DNA of 53,395 bases from a virus: positions 1 through 53,395 of IMG/VR virus record IMGVR_UViG_3300009184_000059; one strand, given 5' to 3'. A model generated the notes under the pieces. That model did no database searches and was not told where the DNA came from. It saw nothing but the letters and a program-made list of their open reading frames with translations. The first letter of the stretch is position 1, and the number at the start of each line of letters is the position of its first letter. Below, in pieces: positions 1,691 through 27,200 of the stretch. The position numbers and the translations under genes are program-made.

Positions 1691-3140
1691 GAATGTCTCC
1701 AGCTCCAAATATATCAGATGCGAATACCTCTGATGAGTTATAGTCAGGCATTTCGTCAAAACTCATCTCGAAATCCTTGTAAGATTTACTATTATCGTCA
1801 TACCTAACTAGTGGTGGATCGTAATTAAATGTAGAGCCAGTAATTCTATTTTTTGGTATCTGTAGTTGCATTAAGTAGTCGTCTTCCGAATCATCGTTGC
1901 TGATTAATTTTTTCTGCGTAATGAAAGTAACCACGGATGATTTTTGTATAATAGCCAAAGAACCACCAACATCAGACTGTTCTATTACGTCCCTTTTTTC
2001 TTTGTTGGCGTTGCTGTTCTGTTGGCTTGTCACAATGAATACAGCATTCATAGCTTTAGCTAATCTTTCTAGTCTAACCATAATTCTTTCAAACTCTTGC
2101 CATCTAGCGCCACCCCCGCCCTTAGTGTACATTGACTGGAGTGTATCTATAATAACTATGTCAGGGTTGCTTCTTTCGTGACCCATTATATCTTTGAGCC
2201 AAAGTTCCAGATCATCAAAGTAGGAACTATCTGGATCATGCCTAACCATAAACCTATCGCCCCATTCATCCATCTTCTCGGTGAATCTAGCTATACGTTC
2301 AGTTTTTTCCTCCTGATTCCAGTGATCAGCATTAGCGTAGACGTTTTCATCTAAGATCTGACTCATAAGAACTCTTTCCCAGTGGGTTTGAGCCTCTTCG
2401 AAATTGATGTAAAGAGAGGTATAACCTTGATCTACCCAGTAGTTCGAGAGTGTCTTAGCAAATGTAGATTTACCAAAACCTGACATAGCCACTATGGCGT
2501 GAACAGCACCCCTGAAATAGCCGCCATCTTCAGTGTAACCCAAAGCTTTGTTATAAGACTTGAATGGGGTGGGCAGAAAGTCTGGGACTTCCATTAGCAA
2601 GGTCGCCCTTGACGCTATATCCGTAGCAGTGGTTACCCTTTCTAAAGGATCATAGTCTAGGTCTCCCTCTAGGGACCTAATCTGTTCAGTTAGACTATTA
2701 AGCCTCTCTACCTCTGCATCTGTTTTGTGGCCCTTTTTATTTAGGAGTAACTGTAGGTCCTGGAATATGCTTTTCTGCCTGCGCTTGTTGGCTCTATGCT
2801 TCAGTATCTTTGTTACCGACTCAGTGTCAGACATATCTATTGTCAGTATAGACTCTATGAGTAGGTTGACGCCGGCTATCCCGCCAAGCGCATCCCATAT
2901 CTCGGACTCAGACTCCAGCCAAGCACGAAATGCTATTGGATCTACTGGGTCTAGGTTTGTTTTTTTATGAAAATCCTTAAAAGCTATATATAGTTCGTAT
3001 AGCCCTGTGTCTCCGCTTAGGAGACCAACTGCCTCCTCTGGCAGATGTTCAGCAAAGTAGCTTATAGCTCCAGGCTCCTTCATCGAAAGAGCGAAAACTT
3101 GATACTCTAGCGGATATGAAATTTCTTCATTTAGATCCAT
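1683..3140 (-). CDS. dnaB: DnaB-like replicative DNA helicase
   Basis: A 485-residue protein of the DnaB/RecA-fold hexameric helicase family, which unwinds duplex DNA 5' to 3' ahead of the replication fork. The N-terminal 150 residues are helical, like the primase-interacting domain of DnaB. The ATPase core starts at about residue 185, with Walker A A218-MSGFGKST (to 226) and Walker B IVIID at 328-332. A Thr-Ser-Gln-Gln segment (371-374) and the Gln-Ser-Asp-Val-Gly-Gly-Ser turn (388-394) match the sensor and arginine-finger region of the family. Length is typical of DnaB (450-500). It overlaps the upstream nuclease gene by 14 bases and the downstream Fe-S protein gene by 8. It is intact, with no intein. 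Confidence 0.88.
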   Translation of the reverse strand: MDLNEEISYPLEYQVFALSMKEPGAISYFAEHLPEEAVGLLSGDTGLYELYIAFKDFHKKTNLDPVDPIAFRAWLESESEIWDALGGIAGVNLLIESILTIDMSDTESVTKILKHRANKRRQKSIFQDLQLLLNKKGHKTDAEVERLNSLTEQIRSLEGDLDYDPLERVTTATDIASRATLLMEVPDFLPTPFKSYNKALGYTEDGGYFRGAVHAIVAMSGFGKSTFAKTLSNYWVDQGYTSLYINFEEAQTHWERVLMSQILDENVYANADHWNQEEKTERIARFTEKMDEWGDRFMVRHDPDSSYFDDLELWLKDIMGHERSNPDIVIIDTLQSMYTKGGGGARWQEFERIMVRLERLAKAMNAVFIVTSQQNSNANKEKRDVIEQSDVGGSLAIIQKSSVVTFITQKKLISNDDSEDDYLMQLQIPKNRITGSTFNYDPPLVRYDDNSKSYKDFEMSFDEMPDYNSSEVFASDIFGAGDIHA

Positions 3141-3756
3141 TTTTCCTTTTTAGCTCTCTGTACTTTGCTTTTCTATAGTCTTTGTTTTGTTTCTTGACTT
3201 TTTCATAATAGTTATTGCCTTTAAAGGTTTTCTTCTCATCAGGTATATCTACTTTTGGGGCCACCTTGATAGCCTCAAGCATCTTCTTGAAAACAGCTTC
3301 TTCATCAAGCTGATCCGAAAAGTGGAATATAACAAGAGCTATACCCTTATCTCTGCAGAGTTGCTCCTTCTTTAGGTCGCGCTCTACTGACTCGTGAAAC
3401 GCATCCATATCCTTATGGAAGTGACTAGTGAAAAAGAAGTGTTGCCTACCATGATACTCCGCTGCCAGATTGTAGGATGGGCAATACACGTCCAACCTTA
3501 GCCTATCGCCTATATGGTATTCATTAACTATTTCTTCATTCGGTAAAATGTCCTGCATGATTGCCGTGAGTGCGGCGTGCCCCCTTGAGAGCTTCCTGTT
3601 ATTCTTCTTAACCCACTTGAGTCCCATTTTATTTAAAAGGATATTTAAATCTTTTTGATTTATATCTAGTTCTTTAGATATTGAAGCTAAGGACATATTA
3701 GATTCAAAGAGCAAATCTTTTAAAATAGATTCTAACTCCCAAAATTCTTTATCCAT
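3127..3756 (-). CDS. PD-(D/E)xK/EDxHD-type endonuclease with N-terminal HTH
   Basis: A 209-residue protein. Residues 20-50 resemble a helix-turn-helix (LASISKELDINQKDLNILL). The C-terminal half has a nuclease-fold signature: D89 in RLRLDVY, E100 followed by Tyr-His-Gly-Arg-Gln-His (101-106), D127, K130 and the strand GIALVIF. This E-x-x-G-x-Q-H pattern is seen in very-short-patch-repair-like, DUF559-like and EDxHD homing nucleases, all of which cleave DNA. A site-specific (freestanding homing) nuclease and a replication/recombination nuclease are both possible. It has a good GAGGG ribosome-binding site, begins just after the glycosyltransferase-side gap in plus-strand coordinates, and overlaps the helicase start by 14 bases. 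Confidence 0.6.
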   Translation of the reverse strand: MDKEFWELESILKDLLFESNMSLASISKELDINQKDLNILLNKMGLKWVKKNNRKLSRGHAALTAIMQDILPNEEIVNEYHIGDRLRLDVYCPSYNLAAEYHGRQHFFFTSHFHKDMDAFHESVERDLKKEQLCRDKGIALVIFHFSDQLDEEAVFKKMLEAIKVAPKVDIPDEKKTFKGNNYYEKVKKQNKDYRKAKYRELKRKNGSK

Positions 3757-3792: not shown

Positions 3793-4545
3793 TCATAACC
3801 GCACCGGTGCTGGGTCATAGATCAAGGGTTTTGATAAGAATTCTTTCCACTTCAACAACATCTGGTCATCCCCTAGAGCGCCCATCTCTCTCCAGTGCTG
3901 ACCTTCATTAAGGGGAAGGTTTGTGGCATCATAAGCTACTTTACCATTTCTTAGTTTTTTTGAAAATTGCTCAAAATTCCTATATTGGAAATGCCTTAAT
4001 TGAAAGCTGGAATAGTCTCTATTCCCACTCCTGATTACACTGTGGTTGCCCTGCAAAAGGGTCAAGCCCGGCTCATACCTGAATGCTACACACGGGAATA
4101 CTTGATGGCCTTTTTCTCTGTGAACTATTCTTTTAAGAGGATTTATATCGTATGGATCATTTTCGGTGGGCAGATGATCAAAAGAAGTTGCTTCCACCAC
4201 AGGCTCCTCTATGGAACGGAGTTTCTCCGCCAAAGTAGATCCATCAACCGCATACCAGAATTCGTCGGCATCGAACGGGACAATCCAGTCTGCGCCAAGC
4301 GAACCAGCTTCATGGCTTAATGCGGTCATTTTAGCTGATTGATAATAAGCTATTTCTGGATCATCCTTTATTAAAATATTTTTATATACTCTAGACATAT
4401 CATTTAGGATATCTCTTGTTCCGTCAGTTGATAAATTATCTAAAATAATGATCTGATCTAAGCCTTCAGAAAGAAGGTGCTCTAAGATATATTGAATTAT
4501 ATCTTCTTCATCTTTAACCATGCATATGCCAAAAATTTTACTCAT
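3793..4545 (-). CDS. GT2-type glycosyltransferase (Glyco_tranf_2_4-like)
   Basis: A 250-residue GT-A-fold glycosyltransferase candidate. The N-terminus has the nucleotide-binding pattern ICMVKDEEDII, then Asp-Asn-Leu-Ser-Thr-Asp-Gly-Thr at 36-43, and the metal-binding Asp-Ala-Asp-Glu-Phe at 92-96, which corresponds to the DxD motif that holds the sugar-nucleotide phosphates through a divalent cation. The Val-Lys-Asp-Glu-(Asp/Glu) start is characteristic of this subgroup. Donor and acceptor cannot be told from sequence. It is the last gene of the sugar cassette and overlaps the acyltransferase stop by 8 bases. No membrane segment is visible, so it probably acts in the cytoplasm. Confidence 0.8.
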   Translation of the reverse strand: MSKIFGICMVKDEEDIIQYILEHLLSEGLDQIIILDNLSTDGTRDILNDMSRVYKNILIKDDPEIAYYQSAKMTALSHEAGSLGADWIVPFDADEFWYAVDGSTLAEKLRSIEEPVVEATSFDHLPTENDPYDINPLKRIVHREKGHQVFPCVAFRYEPGLTLLQGNHSVIRSGNRDYSSFQLRHFQYRNFEQFSKKLRNGKVAYDATNLPLNEGQHWREMGALGDDQMLLKWKEFLSKPLIYDPAPVRL

Positions 4546-5149
4546 TATGTTTTATGACTTTTCCGGGAATTCCAACAACTGTACATTTTTCTTCGGTTAT
4601 GTCCCTGATAATAACAGTTCCAGCGCCGATTGTTGTATTTTTAGCAATGTTTATTAAATGAATAATAGAGCACCCAGTCCCTATAAGCGTCTCCTCGCCA
4701 ACCGTAACCTGCCCAGCTATATTTACTCCTGGGGCTATACTACAAAATTGGCCGATAGACGAACCCTGACTTACGGTTGATCCGACGTTGATATGACTAT
4801 GCTGCCCTATGTGGACATTTCCGGTAACTATAGCTCCAGCAAATATGACGACACCTTCGCCTATAGTAGTGTTGCTGCCAATAGAAGCGGAAGGGTGAAT
4901 AATTGTTGCTGAAGTATTCATTCTTTTTTTATGGTATAAACTTTTTTTGAGATTTGGTTCATTAACCCCTATTACGTAATACGCACCCTCTATTAAATGG
5001 TCAATGTCACCAATGACTCCAGCCTTATTGTGGTCATCATCTAGGTACCCCAATAAATCCCAGGTTAAATTTTCCTGGTTAATAGCATTTACTATAGTCT
5101 CTATACCAGAGCCATGTGATCCAGCGCCAATTATAACAAGCTTTTCCAC
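4538..5149 (-). CDS. NeuD/PglD-family sugar O- or N-acyltransferase
   Basis: A left-handed beta-helix acyltransferase of the NeuD/PglD type. The N-terminus has a Rossmann-like glycine motif (LVIIGAGSHG) followed by GYLDDD, as in PglD, which binds a nucleotide sugar. From about residue 85 to the end are isoleucine/valine-led hexapeptide repeats (IGSNTT, IGEGVV, IGQHSH, IGQFCS, VGEETL, IGAGTV), ending in the family-typical GIPGKVIK. Relatives transfer an acetyl group from acetyl-CoA to sialic acid or to a UDP-4-amino sugar. Here it is embedded among glycosyltransferases, so it probably acetylates a sugar made or used by the cassette. Start choice is uncertain: GTG at 5149 gives the usual family start MEKLVIIGAG and a 1-base overlap with the upstream stop; GTG at 5161 adds four residues. 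Confidence 0.8.
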   Translation of the reverse strand: MEKLVIIGAGSHGSGIETIVNAINQENLTWDLLGYLDDDHNKAGVIGDIDHLIEGAYYVIGVNEPNLKKSLYHKKRMNTSATIIHPSASIGSNTTIGEGVVIFAGAIVTGNVHIGQHSHINVGSTVSQGSSIGQFCSIAPGVNIAGQVTVGEETLIGTGCSIIHLINIAKNTTIGAGTVIIRDITEEKCTVVGIPGKVIKHNE

Positions 5150-5829
5150 TAAACGAACCACCCATCCCCACGATAATTACCGGTATGATTAACGATAGGC
5201 TCGTGATCTACGCCGTGCAAAAAAGCGCAAGTTACAGATTCGTCAGAAAATAATAAATTAGAGAATTCAGCTTCTCCCCATCCATTTTGCCATCCCAGAT
5301 CTACTACCCACCTTGGATACAGGCATGGGTTTAGGGTGAAAAAGTTCCTATGCTCAACCCATACTGCGCCTAAAAATTCTGAACTATACTCAGTATATGT
5401 GTCTGGCTTCTGCTCCATAAATCCACCTACCGACGCCTCATCCCCGTTAACAGGCTGCCTTTTTAATGCAACTTGAGCTAGCTTAGGTTTCTGTTTCAAG
5501 ATGTTCTTTAGCAATTCTAAATCTATGCAATGATTAAATGTGAAGTCACCCTCCTGGTGCCACACATAATCTACGTCATGCTCTTTAGCTAATAACCATA
5601 GAGACATAATAGATCCAGATAATCCCATGTTTACCCTATGAGACCAAATAGTATAACGATCGCCATAAATGTCATTGAGCTCTCGTGAATAACCAGCGTC
5701 TCCTGAATCGTCTATTATAACCTTTTCAAAAAAATTATAATCTAAATTAGACTCTAAGGATTTAATAGTTTGATCTAGTAAATCTGGTCTTTTGTTATCG
5801 ATGATACCAAGCAAAACTTTTTCGCTCAT
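5149..5829 (-). CDS. GT2-like glycosyltransferase
   Basis: About 226 residues with a GT-A-type layout: a first strand with Leu-Gly-Ile-Ile-Asp-Asn-Lys-Arg, then Ile-Ile-Asp-Asp-Ser-Gly-Asp, then Asn-Met-Gly-Leu-Ser-Gly, and Gln-Glu-Gly-Asp-Phe in the position of the metal-binding DxD. The last motif is not canonical, so catalysis is likely but less secure than in its neighbours. The C-terminal part has Trp-Gly-Glu-Ala-Glu-Phe, comparable with the catalytic-base region of inverting GT2 enzymes. I chose ATG at 5829, which makes a 4-base ATGA overlap with the upstream stop; a GTG at 5838 would add three residues but has a poorly spaced ribosome site. Substrate unknown. Confidence 0.7.
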   Translation of the reverse strand: MSEKVLLGIIDNKRPDLLDQTIKSLESNLDYNFFEKVIIDDSGDAGYSRELNDIYGDRYTIWSHRVNMGLSGSIMSLWLLAKEHDVDYVWHQEGDFTFNHCIDLELLKNILKQKPKLAQVALKRQPVNGDEASVGGFMEQKPDTYTEYSSEFLGAVWVEHRNFFTLNPCLYPRWVVDLGWQNGWGEAEFSNLLFSDESVTCAFLHGVDHEPIVNHTGNYRGDGWFV

Positions 5830-6503
5830 GCGTGCCACTTCTCCATGTAGTATATTCTATCTTGCTCCACCATAGAATTAAATTCAGGTGTATATCCACC
5901 AGTGGACTTAGACCCGCCATCTATGTGAGTAAATGAAGCATTAGTTGCCATGACAGTTTTTTTTCCAAATTTATGTATACTATGAATTAAATCGTCATCC
6001 CCATACCACCAATTATAATTTGAATCAAAGATTTCATTTCCGCCAAAATGAACTTGACTAGATATAGCAAAACAAAACCCAGCAAACCCCTTATCCTTAT
6101 ACGTTCCCGCTACCTCTACATACGTGCCAGTGCTTAATCTCTCGTCGTAATTGCCGCAAGACGCCCAGATGTCACCATCTAGCAATAATGGATTGACTAA
6201 TTTAGTCAAAAAGTTTTCAGAATGTATTATCAAATCGTCGTTTAAGACCACAATACTACAATCACTAAAGCTACTTTTCGCTATAGATACCCCATAGTTC
6301 CATTGCTGATAGATGTTTAATCCAGCAGTAGGCAAAAGCGTTATCTTTTTATTCTTAAAATCAGATAAAGTATGCGTATGGTCTATATTGCTATTATCTA
6401 ATATTAATAATTGATCAAACTCATCTTGCTCTACCAATTGGAGAACCAAATTATTGACCATATTATCTTTCCATATAGTTGGTATAATGCAAGAAATACT
6501 CAT
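5826..6503 (-). CDS. GT2 glycosyltransferase
   Basis: A 225-residue glycosyltransferase. It begins with the GT2 strand Ser-Cys-Ile-Ile-Pro-Thr, has Leu-Asp-Asn-Ser-Asn (35-39) and the acidic Leu-Asn-Asp-Asp-Leu (87-91) where the metal/nucleotide-binding DxD lies. Gly-Leu-Asn-Ile-Tyr-Gln-Gln-Trp-Asn-Tyr-Gly (61-71) resembles the NxGfaxaxNxG segment of rhamnosyltransferase-like GT2 enzymes. WWYGDDDLIHSI near residue 170 resembles the family's catalytic E/D-D region. It joins the neighbouring genes by 4-base overlaps on the upstream side and at the downstream end, so it belongs to one translational block. Sampled lines inside it are only about 27-35% GC. Confidence 0.75.
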   Translation of the reverse strand: MSISCIIPTIWKDNMVNNLVLQLVEQDEFDQLLILDNSNIDHTHTLSDFKNKKITLLPTAGLNIYQQWNYGVSIAKSSFSDCSIVVLNDDLIIHSENFLTKLVNPLLLDGDIWASCGNYDERLSTGTYVEVAGTYKDKGFAGFCFAISSQVHFGGNEIFDSNYNWWYGDDDLIHSIHKFGKKTVMATNASFTHIDGGSKSTGGYTPEFNSMVEQDRIYYMEKWHA

Positions 6504-7189
6504 CTATTTCCGCCCATCCAAAATGGTAGATCAATGTGATTCCAGGAATTAATACGAGTATGTGCGTTTTTGATATAAAATTCCTCTTCTTCCCCTGGAT
6601 TATCGGAATCAATATACCAAGGTAGATGTCGGATTAAATATGGGTATTGAGTCCTGCAACTAAGGCTAATATCCTGACTTGCACCTGGCCTATATAAAGC
6701 AAAGGTAGTATCAATTGGTGCGTAATTCAAGTTATTCTCAGGAGCACCCCAACTTAAATATTGAGTTTCATGATCTATAACAGCTTGCTTAAATCTATAA
6801 TGGTCAGGAATGTCATCTAGCTTCAAACCAAAACCAACCTTTTGGCGATCATCATACTTATCTAATAAAGATCTAAAATAATCGATAGCATCATCTGGGC
6901 AGTCCTCGATAGGGAGAACATCTGGATCTGAAACTACAAAATAATTATTTGCTGCATACTTGTCCAATACACCGTGTAGCCATACACCAGTGTGACCGGT
7001 GTTACCTAGCATCTTCACTACATTATGTGGAGTTTTCTCGTAGTATTCGAGCAATGGTTCATACGTAGAATCATTATCAACAAGATATATGTTTTCTTGA
7101 CCAACCTTCTCTAACCAATCGACAAGCTTAGAGGTGCAAGTTACTCTATCTCTACAGATTATAAAAATTGGATACTGGGCTAAACTCAT
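6500..7189 (-). CDS. glycosyltransferase-like protein (GT-A fold)
   Basis: A 229-residue protein with the order of motifs expected for a GT-A fold. Residues 6-15 (YPIFIICRDR) form the first strand, Val-Asp-Asn-Asp-Ser-Thr lies at 37-42, Asn-Thr-Gly-His-Thr-Gly at 63-68, and Val-Ser-Asp-Pro-Asp-Val at 86-91 acts as the likely metal-binding acidic motif. The C-terminal half is rich in Trp, Tyr and His and has no evident catalytic pattern, so this member is divergent. It overlaps both neighbours by 4 bases. It was assigned by motif order and context; a non-catalytic or acceptor-binding role cannot be excluded. Confidence 0.65.
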   Translation of the reverse strand: MSLAQYPIFIICRDRVTCTSKLVDWLEKVGQENIYLVDNDSTYEPLLEYYEKTPHNVVKMLGNTGHTGVWLHGVLDKYAANNYFVVSDPDVLPIEDCPDDAIDYFRSLLDKYDDRQKVGFGLKLDDIPDHYRFKQAVIDHETQYLSWGAPENNLNYAPIDTTFALYRPGASQDISLSCRTQYPYLIRHLPWYIDSDNPGEEEEFYIKNAHTRINSWNHIDLPFWMGGNR

Positions 7190-7866
7190 TCAGGAAAAAA
7201 CTTTCCATTATGAACTAACCACTGGACGCTTCCTTCGTGATACCTTTTAGCTTCATTAGATGCTCCTTCTACCGGGTAGAATTTATGTCCTACATCTGTT
7301 AATTTCCGCCAAAAATGAGCGTCTCCTCCACCCCAGATATCGGGAGTGTCAGCCCATCCCCCCACCTCTATAAAGCATTCTTTCGTATGCATTACTGAAT
7401 TGTGATCAACCTTATTCCAGGCATCATCTAATATGCCAGAAACTTCTCTAACTCCCGAGCAATTTCCGTCAGCATCTACGACGTCTTGATTCCCGTATAC
7501 CACTGAAACGTTTTTTTCTTCTAATTCCTTAACCATAACAGCCAAACGATGAGGGTAGTAATAGTCGTCATCTGTCAAATACGTAATATAATCCCCAGAA
7601 GATATATCATTAACAGCCTGATTTATCAAGGTTGCATAGCGTGTTGTTTTGTATCTTTCTTCTTCTGTGACGTCAGAAAATACAGCAATAACCCTAGGAT
7701 CATGCGTATATGTTTCAATTATTTCTTTCACCAAAGGATTAGGGGAATTATCTTCCATGATAATTAATTCCCAATCCTGAAATGTTTGATTAATAACAGA
7801 ATCTAAAGACTGCTTAAGCCATTGTGGCTTATTGTATACCGTGAGTATAACACTAACTTTAGGCAT
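7186..7866 (-). CDS. GT2 family glycosyltransferase
   Basis: A 226-residue, textbook-like GT2 enzyme. The N-terminus Val-Ser-Val-Ile-Leu-Thr-Val-Tyr-Asn-Lys (4-13) is the classical nucleotide-binding strand, followed by the helix QSLDSVINQTFQDWELII, Glu-Asp-Asn-Ser-Pro-Asn (38-43) and the DxD-like Leu-Thr-Asp-Asp-Asp-Tyr-Tyr (97-103). WGGGDAHFWRKL near residue 180 corresponds to the region carrying the catalytic base. It is the most family-like of the seven transferases. It overlaps the upstream gene by 8 bases (ATGCCTAA) and the downstream one by 4. Donor sugar and acceptor are unknown. Confidence 0.85.
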   Translation of the reverse strand: MPKVSVILTVYNKPQWLKQSLDSVINQTFQDWELIIMEDNSPNPLVKEIIETYTHDPRVIAVFSDVTEEERYKTTRYATLINQAVNDISSGDYITYLTDDDYYYPHRLAVMVKELEEKNVSVVYGNQDVVDADGNCSGVREVSGILDDAWNKVDHNSVMHTKECFIEVGGWADTPDIWGGGDAHFWRKLTDVGHKFYPVEGASNEAKRYHEGSVQWLVHNGKFFPE

Positions 7867-8551
7867 AGACCTTCCAATCTACGAGTACCGGATCTGCATC
7901 TACAATAGATTCTATGTGACTCTTCTGGTGAAAATCTCCACCGTCTAGATGCATGTACCTTTCATACTTCAATTTTTTATCATCGTCATCCACATAGCCC
8001 AAATGCTGCATAACTAATGAACTATCGACTAGGTATTTGCCAGATTGTATAAGCTGGTTAACATAAGTAGGCTCGGATCCGCAGGCTAACTTCCTATCAT
8101 TGAAATGTCCATCGTTATAGAACCTAAAAAGTCTAGAGCTGTTATTTGGCGCCCAGAGTTTATCTACTCTGTATTGAGACTGGTTCCACATGTGAAAGAA
8201 TTTGATATTAATGACATCGTATTTATTTTGTTGCAATATCATAGACATGTCGAAATTTGGGTTTGTTGACCAAAGCTTCTCATCGCAATCGATAGCTAGA
8301 ATCCAGTCTCCAGGTTTAGCAAAACCGCATAGATTTGACCAAGCCTGACTCCTTAGTTGCCCTTCATGCTTAGTGAATAGTGTCTCGTCGGTGCTAAATG
8401 TCTCAGCGTACTTAGAGGCTACCTCTTTTGTGTCGTCTTCTGAGCAGTCATCTGTAAACACAATTAAATCGACCATGCTAGACAAGTGCTCCAGCACATC
8501 AGTCAGGTATCTTCCTGACTCATTTTTCCCAACCATATTAGCTATTAACAT
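7859..8551 (-). CDS. GT2 glycosyltransferase (Glyco_tranf_2_4-like)
   Basis: A 230-residue transferase. Motifs are Met-Val-Gly-Lys-Asn-Glu-Ser-Gly-Arg (6-14), Thr-Asp-Asp-Cys-Ser-Glu-Asp-Asp-Thr (33-41) and Ile-Asp-Cys-Asp-Glu (87-91). The last is the metal-binding DxDE seen in the same subgroup as the gene ending at 3793, so these two are likely paralogues. It has a ribosome-binding site of the AAAGGAA type in a 35-base spacer after the previous gene, one of the few gaps in the cassette. No signal peptide or membrane segment is seen. Confidence 0.8.
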   Translation of the reverse strand: MLIANMVGKNESGRYLTDVLEHLSSMVDLIVFTDDCSEDDTKEVASKYAETFSTDETLFTKHEGQLRSQAWSNLCGFAKPGDWILAIDCDEKLWSTNPNFDMSMILQQNKYDVINIKFFHMWNQSQYRVDKLWAPNNSSRLFRFYNDGHFNDRKLACGSEPTYVNQLIQSGKYLVDSSLVMQHLGYVDDDDKKLKYERYMHLDGGDFHQKSHIESIVDADPVLVDWKVYA

Positions 8552-8586
8552 ACTTTTTTATTTCCTTTCTCGGAGTTATTTTTTGT

Positions 8587-9414
8587 TCAGTCACGCTCTA
8601 TACCCATGTGGTCACATGCATCCCTGAAGATGGATTGACTAATCTTAAACTTAGAGTCCGGCTCGCCCCCGATATCCGAAGAAGCATGCCAGCTGTGCCC
8701 TATAGAAACGTGACCATCGTAGACTACGCTATACCCTCTGTGCCTAGCAAAGTAAGAGCACCAGGTCTCCTCGTAGTAGTGTGGCGTAGGCAAAAACGCT
8801 CCATCCGAGAGTGTCGACCATAAAGGTATCTTTCCGGATCCAACCAAATAACTTAGAAGCTCTATATACTGCGGATCGTAAGTCAGGTTTTCCCATACCG
8901 TCTTCTTCACAAAGTAAGCTGAACCAGAGACGGTAACGGCATCTAGGGTGTCCCTGAAAAGATCATCTCCTGGATCTTTAGCCTTCCAGGCCCGGTGCTG
9001 GGGCTTAGTGTTGGTTCCAAAAATTCCGGCGTGAGTTATGTTACCATTCTCATCTCTTTGTTTGGGACCATAGATATCTGCGTCAAGTTCATACATTCTA
9101 TCCTCAATAGTCTTTACATCTTTAGTCCTCAACCAAACATCTGCATTCAGCAGTCCGACTACATTAGACTTACCTTTAGAAGCCAACAGGTTACAAGCAT
9201 AAGCATAACCGTAATTACATGAACTTAAAATAATCTCCCCTGCCCAACCAAGGGGTTTAACTACTTCGGTTAAATATTCTTGACTACCATCCGTAGAGTT
9301 GTTGTCAATAATATATAGGTTAAATATTTCTGAGTCATAATCAGATCCAAGAGTGTCAATAAGCCTCTTAAGCTTATCTTTGGTGTTGTAGGAAACTACG
9401 CAAAGATCGATCAT
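8587..9414 (-). CDS. GT2 glycosyltransferase, rhamnosyltransferase (WbbL)-like
   Basis: The first gene of the sugar cassette, 275 residues. It has the GT2 start Ile-Asp-Leu-Cys-Val-Val-Ser-Tyr-Asn-Thr (2-11), Ile-Asp-Asn-Asn-Ser-Thr-Asp-Gly-Ser (36-44), the Cys-Asn-Tyr-Gly-Tyr-Ala-Tyr-Ala-Cys-Asn segment (66-75) that matches the NxGfaxaxN pattern of rhamnosyltransferases, and Leu-Leu-Asn-Ala-Asp-Val (88-93) as the DxD equivalent. The C-terminal half has YYEETWCSYFARHRGY, in the place of the catalytic-base and acceptor region. A GGAG ribosome site lies 10 bases before the ATG. If rhamnosyl-like, it would use dTDP-rhamnose from the host, since no synthesis genes are here; that specificity is inference. 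Confidence 0.82.
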   Translation of the reverse strand: MIDLCVVSYNTKDKLKRLIDTLGSDYDSEIFNLYIIDNNSTDGSQEYLTEVVKPLGWAGEIILSSCNYGYAYACNLLASKGKSNVVGLLNADVWLRTKDVKTIEDRMYELDADIYGPKQRDENGNITHAGIFGTNTKPQHRAWKAKDPGDDLFRDTLDAVTVSGSAYFVKKTVWENLTYDPQYIELLSYLVGSGKIPLWSTLSDGAFLPTPHYYEETWCSYFARHRGYSVVYDGHVSIGHSWHASSDIGGEPDSKFKISQSIFRDACDHMGIERD

Positions 9415-9649: not shown

Positions 9650-9898
9650 TTATTCTTTCTTCTTTTTTTGTGCTGATTTCGGATAAACTATTTCTGCATT
9701 TTCTATTTCGTCTCGCGGAATTTGATACCATGCTAGATTGCCATTTTCAGGCTCCATGCTAACAAAGAATACCTTTTTGTCGCTTAACGAAAAACCCTCT
9801 GGAGGGGGAGACTGCAAGGCTATGTCTTTACTAGAGCACCCATAAACTTGGGCGTCATGCGGGTAAACAACAATGTAATTAATCTTTTGTGCTGGCAC
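9650..9898 (-). CDS. hypothetical protein, 82 aa
   Basis: An 82-residue protein with no recognised family. The N-terminal half is a hydrophobic strand followed by a Ser/Pro-rich loop (LQSPPPEGFSLSDKK), then FFVSMEPENGNLAWYQIP, which suggests a small beta-rich fold. The C-terminus is lysine-rich (SAQKKKKE). Its start lies 20 bases inside the end of the deaminase gene, consistent with coupled translation. Function unknown. Confidence 0.6.
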   Translation of the reverse strand: MPAQKINYIVVYPHDAQVYGCSSKDIALQSPPPEGFSLSDKKVFFVSMEPENGNLAWYQIPRDEIENAEIVYPKSAQKKKKE

Positions 9899-10349
9899 TT
9901 GCGAATCCTAAAACCTCTAAACCATTAGCCTTCATAAATTTTGAAACTTTTGACCAATCTTTATAGTTTTCATCTCTTATATAGAATACTGTTTTAATCG
10001 TGCTGTTAACTATCATTTTAGCACAAGTGAAACATGGGGGTCCATTAACGAATAACTTAGTTGGCTTAGAGCTGTGATCAGAGTGTATTAACGCATTCTG
10101 TTCAGCATGGACCGCTATACAGTTGTCGTATATAGATCCATTTTCGGAACCATCGACCAATCGAGGACAACCGCCCTCGTCGCAGTGCTTACTTTTTGGC
10201 GGTCCACCATTGTAGCCCATTCCCAGGACCATGTAGTCGTCATCTGTGAGTATCGCCATATACTGTTTTTTTCCACAAGTAGAAAAAATTGACGCACCTT
10301 CGACACAGAACATCAAGAACTGTATATCTTTTCTACTGAATAGCGGCAT
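9879..10349 (-). CDS. deoxycytidylate (dCMP) deaminase
   Basis: A 156-residue zinc-dependent deaminase of the dCMP deaminase/ComEB group, which converts dCMP to dUMP and so feeds thymidylate synthase. The zinc site is visible: H81-Ala-E83 (HAEQNAL) and P105-C106-Phe-Thr-C109. An additional cysteine/histidine group at KHCDEGGCPR (55-63) is typical of the T4-like dCMP deaminase family and may bind a second zinc. Length is normal. It lies downstream of ThyX with a small membrane-protein gene between them, so both steps of dUMP supply and methylation are in one transcript. The ATG lies 17 bases inside that small gene. Confidence 0.9.
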   Translation of the reverse strand: MPLFSRKDIQFLMFCVEGASIFSTCGKKQYMAILTDDDYMVLGMGYNGGPPKSKHCDEGGCPRLVDGSENGSIYDNCIAVHAEQNALIHSDHSSKPTKLFVNGPPCFTCAKMIVNSTIKTVFYIRDENYKDWSKVSKFMKANGLEVLGFASASTKD

Positions 10350-10506
10350 TTAACATCAGTCCAGACAGAATAAACATGGACATAGACACAAGTAGTGTAA
10401 ACAGCTTCAGGTAGATTGTGTTTGCCGTATCTTTAGTGTTGACTATTACAATAACTCCCCAAACAGCAAAAAATCCTGCAAGAAAATAACTTAATAATTC
10501 ACCCAT
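10333..10506 (-). CDS. small two-helix membrane protein, 57 aa
   Basis: A short reading frame of 57 residues, found by translating the apparent gap between ThyX and the deaminase. The ATG is shared with the ThyX end in an 8-base ATGGGTGA overlap, and the stop falls 17 bases into the deaminase, the same coupling used elsewhere in the window. The product has two hydrophobic segments, residues 5-22 (LSYFLAGFFAVWGVIVIV) and about 34-53 (KLFTLLVSMSMFILSGLML), separated by a short polar loop, NTKDTANT. This predicts a helical hairpin in the membrane. It resembles no family I recognise; a holin/antiholin-like or superinfection-exclusion protein is possible, but the position inside a nucleotide-metabolism block is odd. 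Confidence 0.75.
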   Translation of the reverse strand: MGELLSYFLAGFFAVWGVIVIVNTKDTANTIYLKLFTLLVSMSMFILSGLMLNAAIQ

Positions 10507-11221
10507 CTAAGTTCTCCATAATAGCTTTTAGTGATATTGGGAAAAGTGGCTTCACTAAATCCGCCACAGCATTAGCGTAATCGCCAATTTCAGCCTGCGC
10601 CGTGTCATGAAGTCTCTGCTTAAGGAATAAGCCAACAGACTGAAGACTACATGACCAACGGTACACGACATTCATACCATAGGCCGGTAAGAATAGTCTA
10701 GCTTGCTCGGGTGCTACCCCGAGGGTATTCATTGCGTACTCGTAATTCTTTACACATTCGTCTATCGTCTTGCTCAGTAGGGCTGTCAACTCAAAGCCCT
10801 GCTCTAGTTCCAAGACTGGCCCAGAGCCCTGCTTCAGATTTTCCGGTGCACTCCTCCATTGATCTGGGTCTGGAAGATAAAAATCGGGTTCACCTGTTAT
10901 GTATCGCCTACTCGACTCATTCCATGAGTCCATAGTGTGATCAGACCCCACCACGTACTTCCAGTGTTGCCTTGCTACCATAAGGGGAGCTTTAAACTCA
11001 AGCGTTATGAAAGCGTGGCGGAATGGGGACCAATGGTTTTCTTTAGCGAGGAAGTAAATTAACTTTTCATCTTTTTCACTGAGCTTTAAGCTCTCTTTTT
11101 CGTAGGAGGCCCTAGCCGCATTGACTACCGAAAGATCTGATCCCATGCAATCAACTAGTCTAACGTACCCGTTAGAAAGCACGCTCTTTTTATTCGGGTC
11201 TTCGGGGCTACTCTTCTCCAT
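10499..11221 (-). CDS. thyX: flavin-dependent thymidylate synthase ThyX
   Basis: A 240-residue flavoprotein that makes dTMP from dUMP with methylenetetrahydrofolate and NADPH. The fold markers are visible: the N-terminal AARASYEKES, NHWSPFRHAFITLEFKAPLMVARQ, and the C-terminal YRWSCSLQSVGLFLKQRL segment that binds flavin and nucleotide. The signature region runs R84-Q85 ... N101-E102-S-S-R105-R106-Y107. Between them there are several more residues (VVGSDHTMDSW) than in the usual motif RQ...NExSxRY, so the active-site loop looks longer. The start at 11221 is chosen over 11269, which would lie deep in the upstream gene. It is followed by the two-helix membrane protein and dCMP deaminase. Confidence 0.88.
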   Translation of the reverse strand: MEKSSPEDPNKKSVLSNGYVRLVDCMGSDLSVVNAARASYEKESLKLSEKDEKLIYFLAKENHWSPFRHAFITLEFKAPLMVARQHWKYVVGSDHTMDSWNESSRRYITGEPDFYLPDPDQWRSAPENLKQGSGPVLELEQGFELTALLSKTIDECVKNYEYAMNTLGVAPEQARLFLPAYGMNVVYRWSCSLQSVGLFLKQRLHDTAQAEIGDYANAVADLVKPLFPISLKAIMENLDG

Positions 11222-11564
11222 CTTCGCTCTCTTCAAGCTCCTCATCCTCATCATCTTCATTGTCCTCATCTAAATCATCATCATAGTCGTCGCTAAAGAT
11301 AATATCCATTTGAATATCATCATTGAATTTTTCTGAAACTTCTTTTACATTGTTTAATAATTCTAAAAAATCAGCTGTAATTTCCACGTCGGACGCCCTA
11401 AGGAGTTCGCTCATTAGATTAGAGAGTTGTGCGCATACAAAAGTTATGCTAGCTAGCGTTTCGGATACTTCATTCAATGCTATCTGCTGAAAACTAGGCT
11501 CGTCAAAATCTTCTTGACTTATAATTTCATCAAACTTTGAATCAAACTCTTCAGCGCTAGCCAT
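11208..11564 (-). CDS. acidic hypothetical protein with Asp/Glu-rich tail
   Basis: About 118 residues. The first two thirds are helical and leucine-rich (TFVCAQLSNLMSELLRA). The last 30 residues are almost only Asp and Glu with scattered Leu, Gly and Ser. Such acidic tails occur in DNA mimics, chaperone-like proteins and nucleic-acid competitors, but no family is recognised. The ATG at 11564 has an AAGGAT ribosome site at good spacing; another ATG three codons earlier (11573) has only a directly adjacent AAGG. It lies between the ribonucleotide reductase and ThyX and overlaps the ThyX start by 14 bases, so co-regulation with nucleotide synthesis is likely. Confidence 0.6.
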   Translation of the reverse strand: MASAEEFDSKFDEIISQEDFDEPSFQQIALNEVSETLASITFVCAQLSNLMSELLRASDVEITADFLELLNNVKEVSEKFNDDIQMDIIFSDDYDDDLDEDNEDDEDEELEESEDGEE

Positions 11565-21420: not shown

Positions 21421-24258
21421 TTAATTCCTTCTAGAATCCGGTTTTCTTGTTTTACTTTTAACCTGATAAAAATCTACTTTTGGACTAACAGCTTCGGAAT
21501 AATTACTTCTTAAAACCACTCTAACCCTTAATGTGCTGGGGAAGTAATTATAAAAAACTCTGAAATTCTTATCAACAGGCTTATTGAAAATGAGGACATT
21601 GCCAGAGTGCAAGAAGGAATAACTCGAACTGGCGAGGTCCAAGGTTACTGTGGTTCCCAGCTTGTAGTCCGTCAAGTTTATTGCCCTGCTGCCATCCTCG
21701 AAAATTACCCCAATAGGGTTATAAGGGGAAAGTCCGACAGAGCTAGAATAGGTTGAATTATCGACCTGCGAGTAATCAACGTAAGGGAAGTATGCCAGTT
21801 GGTACTGTAAATTGTCACTACCGTAAAAAGCTTGACCAGGAGAATCACCATCGTGATATGAAATATATGATCCAACCTTATCGGTATAGTTGTCAAAACT
21901 TACTGTAGAAACATCCTGTGCAGGTACATAGTCACAGGTGAATACGTCAGTTGATGTGTATGAATTTACCGGTATTTTTAGTCCGTAAATTGTATTAGAA
22001 TTTTCACGCTTCAAGTAAAGCGACGATAGGTCTACATTCCCGTACGAATCACCGTTCTTGTATAGGGTAACGTTCTGGTTAGCCGCGCCAAACCTGAATG
22101 AAGATATCCCATTTCCATCTGGGAATAGTCTTTCTCCTATTATTATATCGGCATTAAAAGGCAGGATAGGCTTCCAACTTGACTCATTGTAATACTCTGG
22201 GCTACTAGTGACAGAGTATTCCACTGAGGTAAGAGCTATATTGCTGGAGTTAGTTTCATTTATGTAATCCACGGAGGACTCCTTGAGTTTAACTTCAGAG
22301 ATATCTCCAGATACACCAATTGGTTTACTTACATAAACTGCTCTATTCTTGTAATTTGCCAGCTTAATTCTAACGCTTTTCAAACCTAATATATACCTGT
22401 ACCTGTAAGACTTGTTTGGTTGAAAAAGTATTTCAGAATAAGGCACTGCTGGTAGAGCTAAGTTGTTTCCAGGTGCAGGAACTTTCCCGGGATCTTCTGA
22501 CCTAGAAGGGTCTGGTGCAGGCATAAAGGGGAGTTTATACTTTCGATCAAACTCCACTACGGGCGGAGTTAATCGCCTCTGGCCGGTCACCCATTTGCCT
22601 TCGTCTTCCGACCAATATTTTTCTTCTAAACTGCTTTCCCTATCCAGGACTGGGGACGTAGAGCTATCCAACCAAAAATCCCATTTAGTGGTAGCAGACC
22701 ATGGAGTTGTTCCACCGTAAGAATAAGAAAAAGAGTCATCCAACTCAGGGGGCATAGCTGTACTTGAGACTTCTAGCTCACCTAACCTTGGGTATGGCGC
22801 GCTCCTCATCTCTGGCTCATCTGGCCTAAGGGATATTGGGTTAGACTGAAAATATTTATCTACCAACGGCCTTATAAAGGCCCCTATACCAGTGCTTTGA
22901 GTACCAAAGAAACGACGAACAAAGTCTTGCATATAAGAAGAATTAACGTCCCCAAGAGAAGAGGTGTAACTATCCCTGTCTCGATATACCTCGCTAGACT
23001 CGCCTACCGATGTGCGTTTTTCAATAAACCCAGACTGGCTACTCCAATATGTTGGCAGGCCTTGGCTGAATAGCTCTGAATCTTTTCTACCTAAAGAGTT
23101 TTTTAAGGTTGAGAAAACAATGCCCCAATAAGAAGTTATATCTACAACCTGAGGCATAGTGCCTATCCCTAGCTTAGTGTCGCTAATCGAATCGGCAATC
23201 CTTGAGGTAGTACTTACCTTGTACTCGGCTACGGATTCAGAAACAAGGGCATTACTTACCTGTCTAAGGTATGCTCTCTGGTTTAGGTACAGGTGGAATT
23301 TTTTGAATGATTTCTTTGGAAACATTATGTTAGTAGTTTTTCCTATATAAACAGGAGCAGACATTAATGCTAAACCGACTAGATCGGATTCTGATTCGTA
23401 GCCAACCAGCTGCACTAGGGTGAAACCGTAGTCATCAAACGGATCGACTACCAATGTATCTACCGGACTCTCGTCGTTCATTTCATACTGTACAATGAAC
23501 TGAGCGCCAGGGTACAAGCTATCCCCACCATAAAGACCCCCAAACGCATACAGGGGTTTATCTATTATGATTGGAGAATCTATAACGGCTCTCCAACCGT
23601 TGATGTTTGCGTAGTCTACTGTATTAGAAATGGAATTACTGCTAGAAGGATTAGTTATGAACGCCGCGCAATTACTAGCCCAAATAGAAGCGTTCGCCCC
23701 ATAAGAAACTTCCCTACTAGAAGGGATTACCAATGTTCCTTCGCCGGAGTTAACCGAGGCAACTTCGCTGGAGGAAAAATCCAAACCAGATCTATCGCTC
23801 AAATTTTTGTAGCTAAAATCTACTTCTTCAAAGCTTAAATTATCATTAAAGGTCTCAATAAATGCCGAGTCGTAAGAATTACTGTCAGTTAAAAGAAAGC
23901 TATAGTTGTTTAAAGTCTTCTCTAAAGAATCAAGCTCTTCCTCTAAGCTCTTAATTTCCTGCGACAATATGAAGCTTGTGTTCCCCATAAGAAGAGAAAT
24001 TGCATTAGACGAAGAGAACATGTCGTTATATCTAGAGTAGACCTCGCTAAGCATGTTTGCTATAAGCAAACCAGAAGCTATAGACCCTGCATCTATTAGT
24101 GGGATTACTGTCCCGGCAAACATAGATTTTTCGCTAAGTCTTGTAATTAAATTATTTAGCGTTATTTTGTCCACCTTAGCGGTCTGGAGTAAAGTGCCCG
24201 CCCTAGCAGCTTGACCTGCGCCCCTTAATGATATAATGTCATTCAAAAAATTATTCAT
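21421..24258 (-). CDS. large tail/adsorption protein, paralogue family member (945 aa)
   Basis: A 945-residue structural protein, the largest of the four paralogues. The N-terminal 150 residues are helical, with a coiled-coil-like stretch SQEIKSLEEELDSLEKTL. This is followed by DSNSYDSAFIETFNDNLSF, matching NSNSDGYFYSFLDTFPNLSF of the 714-residue protein, and EGTLVIPSS matching its SVSIPIHS. The central part has a proline-rich linker (TPPVVEFDRKYKLPFMPAPD) and several beta domains. The end is LRVRVVLRSNYSEAVSPKVDFYQVKSKTR. It overlaps the 2,077-residue gene by 8 bases. Probably a tail-tip fibre or arm; no enzymatic motif was seen. Confidence 0.65.
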   Translation of the reverse strand: MNNFLNDIISLRGAGQAARAGTLLQTAKVDKITLNNLITRLSEKSMFAGTVIPLIDAGSIASGLLIANMLSEVYSRYNDMFSSSNAISLLMGNTSFILSQEIKSLEEELDSLEKTLNNYSFLLTDSNSYDSAFIETFNDNLSFEEVDFSYKNLSDRSGLDFSSSEVASVNSGEGTLVIPSSREVSYGANASIWASNCAAFITNPSSSNSISNTVDYANINGWRAVIDSPIIIDKPLYAFGGLYGGDSLYPGAQFIVQYEMNDESPVDTLVVDPFDDYGFTLVQLVGYESESDLVGLALMSAPVYIGKTTNIMFPKKSFKKFHLYLNQRAYLRQVSNALVSESVAEYKVSTTSRIADSISDTKLGIGTMPQVVDITSYWGIVFSTLKNSLGRKDSELFSQGLPTYWSSQSGFIEKRTSVGESSEVYRDRDSYTSSLGDVNSSYMQDFVRRFFGTQSTGIGAFIRPLVDKYFQSNPISLRPDEPEMRSAPYPRLGELEVSSTAMPPELDDSFSYSYGGTTPWSATTKWDFWLDSSTSPVLDRESSLEEKYWSEDEGKWVTGQRRLTPPVVEFDRKYKLPFMPAPDPSRSEDPGKVPAPGNNLALPAVPYSEILFQPNKSYRYRYILGLKSVRIKLANYKNRAVYVSKPIGVSGDISEVKLKESSVDYINETNSSNIALTSVEYSVTSSPEYYNESSWKPILPFNADIIIGERLFPDGNGISSFRFGAANQNVTLYKNGDSYGNVDLSSLYLKRENSNTIYGLKIPVNSYTSTDVFTCDYVPAQDVSTVSFDNYTDKVGSYISYHDGDSPGQAFYGSDNLQYQLAYFPYVDYSQVDNSTYSSSVGLSPYNPIGVIFEDGSRAINLTDYKLGTTVTLDLASSSYSFLHSGNVLIFNKPVDKNFRVFYNYFPSTLRVRVVLRSNYSEAVSPKVDFYQVKSKTRKPDSRRN

Positions 24259-27200
24259 TCCAAGGACGCCCCTCTAGGTCTTCTATAACAAATTCTACAC
24301 CTGCAGGTATGTTTCTGCGAATTACTTCTTCTACCTGCTTAGTATCTGGAAATGCAGTTTTTAGCATTTTGGGTAGTCGTACTATTACTAGTCCGCCATA
24401 CTGGAAACTTTGACCAGCCCCGAAACCTATATCCCAGTAAGCTTTCGCTTCACTATTTTTATTGAACACCTCAGCGGGCTTTAGCAGGTCTTTTGCCCCT
24501 CCGCCCCTTCTTCTGGTATCTATCATTACTAGGTCTTCGATTTTGGCAGACGCTGTTACGAATATAACACCAATTTGTATAGCTAGCGGGTTGTAAAGCG
24601 GATTATATGGATTGATCACTGAGTTGTCGGGTGTTACATTGATTACTGAACTGCTAATAGACTCCTGTATAATATCCCCATCCTCATTCCTCACATATTG
24701 AGGGATTATGTACACATATACCGGAACCCCTATTAAGTCTTCCCTAGCTTTTAGGTATGGATTTAAATTAATTTTTTCCAAACCAATATTCTTCACCGTG
24801 TAAACCCTGCTAACGGTTGTGTAGTCAACCCTTACAAGATTTTCATCTTCTTCCTGTATTGGGTTTCTTAGGTAAATCAAACCATTCGAAACATTATAGT
24901 CTAAGATGTCGGATTTAGCCACCTCAACCCAAGCGCTTGACGTGCTTTCTCGTGTCCAAACCCTTAACATTGGCCTCTGCGGGTTGGCAAGTGAGGGGAA
25001 CTGGGTTGGCTCCATTACCATCACAATCGGTGCTTGCCTAATTCTAATAATATCCCTTGATATAACCTCTGGCGTTTCCTGCTTAACATCAACATATGGT
25101 CTACCGAATATAGGAGACCAACCCATGTTATTGGCCTCGGCGATTGCGTAGAATGCCTGAAGTGTTTTGCCCTGATATTCCGATAACCAGCCACCAATTG
25201 GCATTACTGAACTGTTAGGAACCTTGACGTTCCTATTGAAAGAGCCTGACCTAACTGGTATACCCCAAGGGTCTGATGCCCCTAGCGTGGAGTCAATACT
25301 CTCTATACCTATCTTAGACTTCCCCCTTAGGGAGGCACCGTAGACGGGCATAGCGTATTTGAATGGCAATTCATTTAGCCCGTCAATTACCTTTGGGTAC
25401 TGCTGCTTGCTTAATACTTCAGCTTCTGATATAACGCCAATGTATATATTTTGTGCGCCCCTCTTTACGTACTCAATATAACTAAGCTTAGATCCACCAT
25501 CTTTGTTGACTATAAACTCTTTTTGTCTTTTATCGTAGAAGCCAATCCGCACGAATGGTGAAGTTACGTAAGACTCAAGTTCCAGCTCCACATAATGCCT
25601 TTGCCTCTCGTTGGGCCCAACAGTGGTCGGGAAAACTGGGATACCTACTGGCCTTCCATCTAAAGTGCACAGCAACTTTATGCCATCAGCTTTACTAATA
25701 AAGCCAGTTTCTACACCAGGGAAGATTCGCCCATTTTCGTTCATGGCGTATATTGGGTTGGCACTGACATCTAACGTTGTAGTGGTGCTGGCGCTACGGC
25801 TAGACATAGTCACTACTTTACCCTCTAGAGGCTTATCTGGGGGACCAGGAAGCCACCTACCCTCAGTATACTTATCTACCGCATTATTGACTACTTCGTC
25901 TGTCCTTAGGTAAAGCTTTCCGTCAGAAGTTATAAACGCCTCAACATTTGGATTGCTACTTTCAAGCCTATACAGACCAGCTTGTAAAGGATTGAAATTT
26001 GGAGATATAGAGGTAGAAACCTCAGATATTGGATCCACACCCCAAACGACATCCGTGAGTGTTCCCGATGCGCCCGTCTCGACATAATTATGATTTAGCT
26101 GTATCGGGCCCATATCGCCAATTAAGGTAAACGTCTTCCTTACAACGCCCTCATAATCTATAACTGCGTTATCCCCAGATACTGTAGTAAAACCTACAAT
26201 ATCTCTACCGTAACCAGTTATGTCTGATATGCCTAACTCAACCTGATTATTGTATTGGGAACCAGCCCTGGAGGTAGAAGTTACACCTACGATTAGCGTA
26301 TTACCTATAGACCTTTGGTCCTGAGGGATCTGTATTGGCAGCGCTTGCCCATTTAATGCGGTTTTATTAATATTCTTAACTAGAGCCCTAGAGGGATCAT
26401 AATTAAACAATAGGTCTTCAGGCTTAATGAAATATGGTTGAGGTAAATGCTTTTGTATTCTCTGGATAGTTGGTGTTCCACCTAGCCAGATGAAGAGTTC
26501 ATCAGTAAACTTCTGGGTAATAGGGCCCCAAAGGCCATCTATAGGCATAGCCCCATCCCATCTTGACTGCCAATCCCTAACGGCCCTCTCTGTTGCTGGA
26601 CCGTAGTAGCCGTCTTCTGTTAGGTGCAGTAATCTTTGGATACTAGTTACATCAGATATAAGGCCCCAGTTACTATCTACTGGAATACCCCATTGGTAAG
26701 CCCTAGTTTCTTTCCACCTGCGCACTGCTGCTGCGGTAGCCGGACCGTAGTCGCCATCAGCGTTTACATTTACCGCTCTTTGAATCATTTTGACAAATGC
26801 TATCCTATTATTGGCGCTAAAAAAATTAATAATAGCATACCCTGGATCTGGTGTCTTAGTTATCCCAGTCCAATATCTGTAGTCCCAGGTCGTTTGCTTT
26901 ACATTATTCGTCGCCCAAATTTCAGGATTTTGTCCCCAAAGCACTCTCTGCGAATCGGGGATCCAACCAGAGCCGCCACCAGGTCGCTCTTCTACCTGAT
27001 AGTATTGCCATGCCTTATTGAGCATGTCACCTGTAAACCTAGTTGTATCTATCCTGGTTAACTGGATATCGACAAAATCAATCTTAACATTTGAGCCCAA
27101 ACCAAGAAGATATGGTGTTATAGAAATATACTCAAAGGCAAAAGTCTTGGGGTATTGAACAAGGAATACGTCAGATATGCGATCTAAATTCCTTCTCGAA

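Follow-up and report, generated by a model that had tools for sequence, protein, structure and literature searches.

A glycosyltransferase cassette with a fixed gene pair and an exchangeable outer module in a large environmental phage lineage, possibly acting on virion proteins

An eight-gene cassette in a 53,395-base IMG/VR virus record (IMGVR_UViG_3300009184_000059; the whole stretch analyzed is called the window) encodes seven soluble glycosyltransferases (GTs) of the GT-A type and one acetyltransferase of the PglD/VioB type. Two of the transferases, g8 and g7, form a fixed pair across a phage lineage, while the remaining genes, g6 to g1, make up a module that is exchanged between phages at the level of single genes. 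With somewhat better than an even chance, the cassette serves the glycosylation of virion proteins with an exchangeable glycan and works like the systems of the mycobacteriophages Che8 and cluster O; modification of the host surface or of DNA is less likely.

All eight open reading frames (ORFs) of the original prediction were found again, on the minus strand, and are given here in the order of transcription (g8, g7, g6, g5, g4, g3, g2, g1), followed by the flanking genes.

g8: 8587-9414, minus strand; GT2 glycosyltransferase, member of the fixed pair (Pfam PF00535, 7e-15).
g7: 7859-8551, minus strand; Glyco_tranf_2_4 glycosyltransferase, fixed partner of g8 (PF13704, 2e-6).
g6: 7186-7866, minus strand; GT2 glycosyltransferase, SpsA-like (PF00535, 6e-21; SpsA, 3.6e-33).
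g5: 6500-7189, minus strand; predicted GT-A-fold glycosyltransferase (model and fold search; Pfam below cut-off).
g4: 5826-6503, minus strand; predicted GT-A-fold glycosyltransferase (model and fold search; no Pfam match).
g3: 5149-5838, minus strand; GT2-like glycosyltransferase (weak Pfam GT2; phrog_3047 'galactosyl transferase', 3e-12).
g2: 4538-5161, minus strand; PglD/VioB-type left-handed beta-helix acetyltransferase (Pfam PglD_N and Hexapep).
g1: 3793-4545, minus strand; Glyco_tranf_2_4 glycosyltransferase (PF13704, 4e-15).
Endonuclease-like gene: 3127-3756, minus strand; downstream boundary, with HNH/homing-type PHROGs, outside the sugar machinery.
o82: 9650-9898, minus strand; upstream flank, small conserved gene of unknown function (synteny).
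Upstream of o82: dCMP deaminase, 9879-10349, and ThyX, 10499-11269 (Pfam).

The overlaps that had been claimed for all of the genes were present at six of the seven junctions (8, 4, 4, 13, 13 and 8 nt); g8 and g7 are separated by a gap of 35 bp (8552-8586). The assignment of seven glycosyltransferases and one PglD-type acyltransferase was borne out by Pfam, PHROGs, fold models and recurrence in relatives, and the eight genes are real. Because the arrangement was found again in relatives, a chance run of GT-like ORFs was rejected. Four of the transferases (g1, g6, g7 and g8) belong clearly to GT family 2, and g3 does so weakly by Pfam and PHROGs. The two that are weakest by sequence, g4 and g5, are predicted to fold as GT-A enzymes. 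Their models, built with phage homologues, each reached a mean predicted local distance difference test score (pLDDT) of 89 and a predicted template modeling score (pTM) of 0.88. The g4 model matched WrtF and polypeptide N-acetylgalactosamine (GalNAc)-transferases in the PDB, and the g5 model matched a mannosyltransferase and other GT-A enzymes in looser alignments (TM about 0.5). Residues D88xD90 (the DxD motif), K117, D160 and the C-terminal H188 of g5 are invariant in 15 homologues, and homologues of g4 keep N88/D90 and D169. Hydropathy analysis gave no membrane segment in any of the eight proteins. Promoter matches in the cassette (37) were not in excess over shuffled sequences (35.9), and a search against Rfam found nothing.

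The window covers only part of a considerably longer genome. The middle of record G001 (190,033 bases) is collinear with it between a baseplate gene and an HD-domain gene, and contractile-tail and head genes were identified in both using PHROGs. The window represents 53 kb of a phage lineage with contractile tails and genomes of roughly 190 kb. Relatives were collected by a scan with g8: from 310 viral stretches that matched, the best 80 were retained, and the comparison covered over 80 related contigs. Among these, L002 is near-identical to the window, contigs L003 and L005 belong to G002, and L094 and L102 are stretches of G001. Neither the cassette at the DNA level nor g5 at the protein level gave a match when searched against cultured phages. 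WhiB genes occur in six of 13 related records and are taken as an actinophage mark (PMC6802176, PMC10202952), so the host is probably a freshwater member of the Actinobacteria.

The pair g8/g7 was assessed in 52 loci, defined as distinct g8 proteins whose locus reaches DnaB, so that g8 is present by construction. Both g7 and the endonuclease gene were present in 52/52. The gene order is constant in the relatives, namely ribonucleotide reductase (RNR), ThyX, in some cases dCMP deaminase, o82, g8, a variable interval, g7, further genes, endonuclease and DnaB, and it was the same in all 44 loci with ThyX in view. A third transferase, with a GT-D-like fold, follows g7 in 50 of the 52 loci, the two exceptions belonging to the window's own subclade. 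In many relatives the interval between g8 and g7 holds SNase, pyrimidine-dimer glycosylase and deoxyribosyltransferase-like genes, all three of which are absent from the window; in some it holds a C5-methyltransferase. The g8 motif GAFLPTPHYYEETWCSY is invariant even at 39-43% overall identity in an alignment that includes phage GX15bay (MK557849), an otherwise unrelated phage in which homologues of g8 and g7 are likewise adjacent. No g8 was found when 84,980 species of bacteria and archaea were scanned with two peptide patterns.

Two further observations concern these loci. The endonuclease-like gene at 3127-3756 is homing/HNH-like yet fixed beside DnaB in 52/52 loci, and it may be an enzyme resident at this site instead of a mobile element. 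At L054:3001-6158, between the g8 and g7 homologues, lie three 2-oxoglutarate (2OG)-Fe(II)-oxygenase-like genes, two of them above or at the Pfam cut-off; an acceptor residue or a sugar might be hydroxylated before glycosylation.

The module g6-g1 behaves otherwise. The full series beside the endonuclease gene and DnaB was seen only in the window, L002, G002 and L111, and at the same site G001 carries, beyond g8/g7, only g6 from the cassette. In L113 the homologues run g6, g5, g4, g3, methyltransferase, g2, two methyltransferase-like genes and g1, placed between a VanY/peptidoglycan-binding protein and a fibre-like protein; in L112 the order is g6, g3, g2, g1, g4, downstream of an amidase; and in G016-G019 the g8 core and a cassette of g6, g1, g3 and, further on, g2 homologues stand apart on one contig. 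Between the window and G002, identities of 87% (RNR), 89% (DnaB) and 71% (endonuclease) in the flanks compare with 81 and 79% for g8 and g7, 68% for g6 and 50-58% for g5-g1, and for several cassette genes the homologues in L112/L113 are nearer to the window than those of G002. The g5 protein shares 95% with L111 vs 50% with L003. At the nucleotide level L111 and the window are 87% identical over 942 bp, comprising all of g5 and the end of g6; on the right this tract stops at the g5/g4 junction, and on the left it simply reaches the contig end. Outside the tract, protein identity was 43% for g4, 53% for g1 and 86% for DnaB, and the rest aligned at 69% nucleotide identity. Since g5 is less conserved than DnaB in G002 but more conserved in L111, recent exchange is the best explanation. 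In single-gene trees of g1, g2 and g3, G002 was more distant from the window than were cassettes found at other positions. Approximately unbiased (AU) tests on these trees were not significant (p 0.11, 0.08 and 0.38), so the case for exchange rests on the identity gradient, the scattered positions and the g5 tract of L111.

As a separate observation, a 479-aa protein that resembles NodU/CmcH carbamoyltransferases by eye adjoins the cassette at L121:3297-4736 (minus strand), and also in L119 and L120; it could carbamoylate a sugar.

Cassette homologues lie in or beside the head and tail modules of several unrelated phages, which is suggestive of a virion acceptor. L129 carries TerL, portal, major head protein and, after 98 bp, homologues of g4 and then g3, g2 and g1; L131 carries portal, a protease-like gene, homologues of g3 to g1 and major head protein; L128 carries homologues of g3 and g1 followed by TerL; L144 carries an oxygenase, a GT and, further on, a g3 homologue, neck genes, TerS, TerL, sheath and tube; in GX15bay the cassette is followed by TerL, PhoH and portal; and in L113 a fibre-like protein comes next. 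A hint of a protein acceptor comes from GmaR, the nearest solved relative of both g7 (1.5e-6; profile 1.4e-8) and g1 (1.4e-7), whose GT domain puts N-acetylglucosamine (GlcNAc) on flagellin (PMC9638930). Several points weigh against a virion acceptor. The neighborhood argument has no base rate, structural modules being a large share of phage genomes, and the window's own cassette sits between nucleotide metabolism and helicase genes, not structural genes. The GmaR profile match spans the donor half only. The capsid and tail tube homologues of the relatives lack a clear Ser/Thr-rich C-terminal tail; the Che8 capsid protein likewise has no obvious tail of this kind, and the window holds no capsid gene.

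Apart from the cassette, a Methyltransf_24 gene and a GT (phrog_13126, 1e-109) lie upstream of tail-fibre and portal genes in G001 (L094:1934-3579). This GT is 58% identical to a GT of Actinomycetia phage DSL-LC01, and the two genes form a GT-methyltransferase pair among structural genes.

The bacterial relatives of GT2 enzymes mostly serve the synthesis of surface polysaccharide, and the cassette could instead alter the polysaccharide on the surface of the infected host, perhaps so that competing phages do not adsorb or progeny are not lost on debris. The resemblance of g6 to SpsA, the occurrence of g5, g4 and g2 homologues with a gene for a 4-amino-sugar aminotransferase in the chromosome of a freshwater actinomycete, and the cell-wall hydrolase genes that adjoin the cassettes of L112 and L113 fit this explanation. 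It is nonetheless unlikely: none of the eight proteins has a membrane segment or is a flippase, a polymerase or a GtrA/GtrB-type partner, the homologues in unrelated phages sit in head and tail modules, and the lineage appears to be lytic, which would leave little time for remodeling. Gtr-type O-antigen or serotype conversion was rejected because of the missing membrane segments; the GtrB-like PHROG matches of the GT domain were weak.

DNA as the acceptor is suggested by the position of the locus next to RNR, ThyX and dCMP deaminase, by the C5-methyltransferase between g8 and g7 in some relatives, and by 2OG-Fe(II) oxygenases in relatives. The transferases would then resemble the GT clusters that act behind a cytosine methyltransferase and a TET-type dioxygenase. 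The likeness to such hypermodification clusters (5-methylcytosine methyltransferase, TET/5mYOX and GTs; Pyle et al. 2024, cited in PMC12619734) lies in several phage GTs standing together and in the C5-methyltransferase of some relatives; the difference is that the relatives have no TET/5mYOX above the cut-off and that the methyltransferase is not conserved. The search for base-modification genes covered relatives up to about 190 kb, the window's own genome being incomplete. ThyA family genes were found in 0/13 related records and HMUDK in 0/11. Tet_JBP matches in seven records all fell below the cut-off and were rejected, the two strongest being PF13640 oxygenases. A C5-methyltransferase was present in three of 13 records, G001 not among them, whereas g8/g7 are in all; the always-present pair thus has no always-present base-modifying partner. 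GX15bay, moreover, holds the pair without annotated nucleotide-metabolism genes. Glycosylation of DNA is for these reasons quite improbable. The long relatives thus hold no known hydroxymethylpyrimidine pathway, in agreement with the original prediction, whose preference for the virion over DNA is also supported by the cassette homologues among head and tail genes.

A different target, such as a non-virion protein, a secondary metabolite or RNA, or different targets for the two layers, is improbable too. In its favor, the g8 core and the outer cassette lie at separate places in some relatives, and relatives have the SNase, pyrimidine-dimer glycosylase and deoxyribosyltransferase-like genes between g8 and g7; but no specific sign points to such a target, and these interval genes are absent from the window.

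Glycosylation of virion proteins is known from phages of actinobacterial hosts. The major capsid protein of Che8 is reported to be glycosylated (PMC11256854, citing Freeman et al. 2023), and in cluster O (Corndog) phages three tandem GTs downstream of an O-methyltransferase modify the capsid and tail tube (PMC11600133). In Che8 three overlapping GT genes (108-110), one of them fused to a methyltransferase, lie near the genome end. These systems share with the cassette an operon in which the genes for small, soluble GT2-type transferases overlap and genes for nucleoside diphosphate (NDP)-sugars are missing, an actinobacterial host and an endonuclease gene nearby; methyltransferases lie in the operon in Che8 and cluster O, and in related cassettes (L113, GX15bay) for the window's kind. 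The window differs in the number of genes (eight, against three or four), in having an acetyltransferase and a traded module beside the fixed pair, and in that its acceptor is putative. Profiles of the window's GTs gave no match to the three Che8 GTs at E<=10, which counts against the virion reading. As there is no homology to the Che8 GTs at the sequence level, and as the defining feature, a glycan on virion proteins, is beyond sequence analysis, membership in the mycobacteriophage systems is not claimed. The seven-GT cassette of GX15bay, a 52-kb phage, has homologues of g8, the adjacent g7 and g3 (2.5e-32) in one operon with a methyltransferase; it differs in lying directly upstream of terminase and portal, and its record reports no function.

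For g2 the best solved relatives were VioB (9e-24), PerB, a pilin-glycosylation acetyltransferase and PglD. The protein shares the domain order and fold family (PglD_N and left-handed beta-helix) of these NDP-4-amino-sugar N-acetyltransferases. The active-site His of VioB, which we take to be the general base, is also present in an actinomycete homologue; g2 has Gln in its place, the phage family as a whole has Gln or Arg, and g2 may use another base or another substrate. The acetylated sugar of the original prediction is therefore plausible, given relatives that act on NDP-amino sugars, and unproven, given the changed residue. That none of the eight genes makes a nucleotide sugar was borne out. 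The further claim, that the phage has to draw on host sugars, is unproven, because the window is a fragment and G001, like the cassettes of some relatives, carries a HAD-nucleotidyltransferase fusion of the sugar-nucleotidyltransferase type. This fusion (HAD phosphatase-nucleotidyltransferase, 456 aa) lies in G001 in a second sugar locus by RecA (L102:6940-10496, G001 166940-170496), with a GT2_4 gene and two unassigned genes, and recurs inside the cassettes of L116-L118 and L126.

If virion proteins are the target, g8 and g7 would most likely carry out the first transfers, on a single conserved acceptor, and g6-g1, including g2, would form the outer module that chooses which further sugars are added. 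The acceptor would be a capsid or tail protein glycosylated in the cytoplasm before assembly, with NDP-sugars from the actinobacterial host, some perhaps finished by phage enzymes. The glycan may be the short, ordered oligosaccharide of the original prediction, and swaps of outer genes would change it on the particle. We tentatively propose a phage 'serotype locus', a reading we hold to be possible though short of likely: on a virion protein, a vertically inherited pair would build a glycan stem that stays fixed, and an outer module traded gene by gene among unrelated phages of freshwater Actinobacteria would change the surface glycan of the particle, as bacteria vary their O-antigens. To our knowledge, virion glycosylation has been demonstrated in only a few phage isolates. 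The large environmental phages described here form a widespread lineage in which a transferase pair is universal and stands next to an outer module that is exchanged rapidly. Should the acceptor be a virion protein, environmental phages would generally have coat glycans, as a trait that diversifies, and the selecting agent, whether host receptors, grazers or competing phages, would become a direct question.

Two minor observations were made outside the cassette. In G002 (L005:4818-7789) the region of the class II RNR gene exceeds that of the window by about 1 kb, and RNR was only partly matched in several relatives (300 vs 800 bits); an intein or intron is possible. At 24251-36567 and 42861-52298 the window encodes very large structural-region proteins (2077, 2027 and 3145 aa), the largest of which is perhaps the tape measure.

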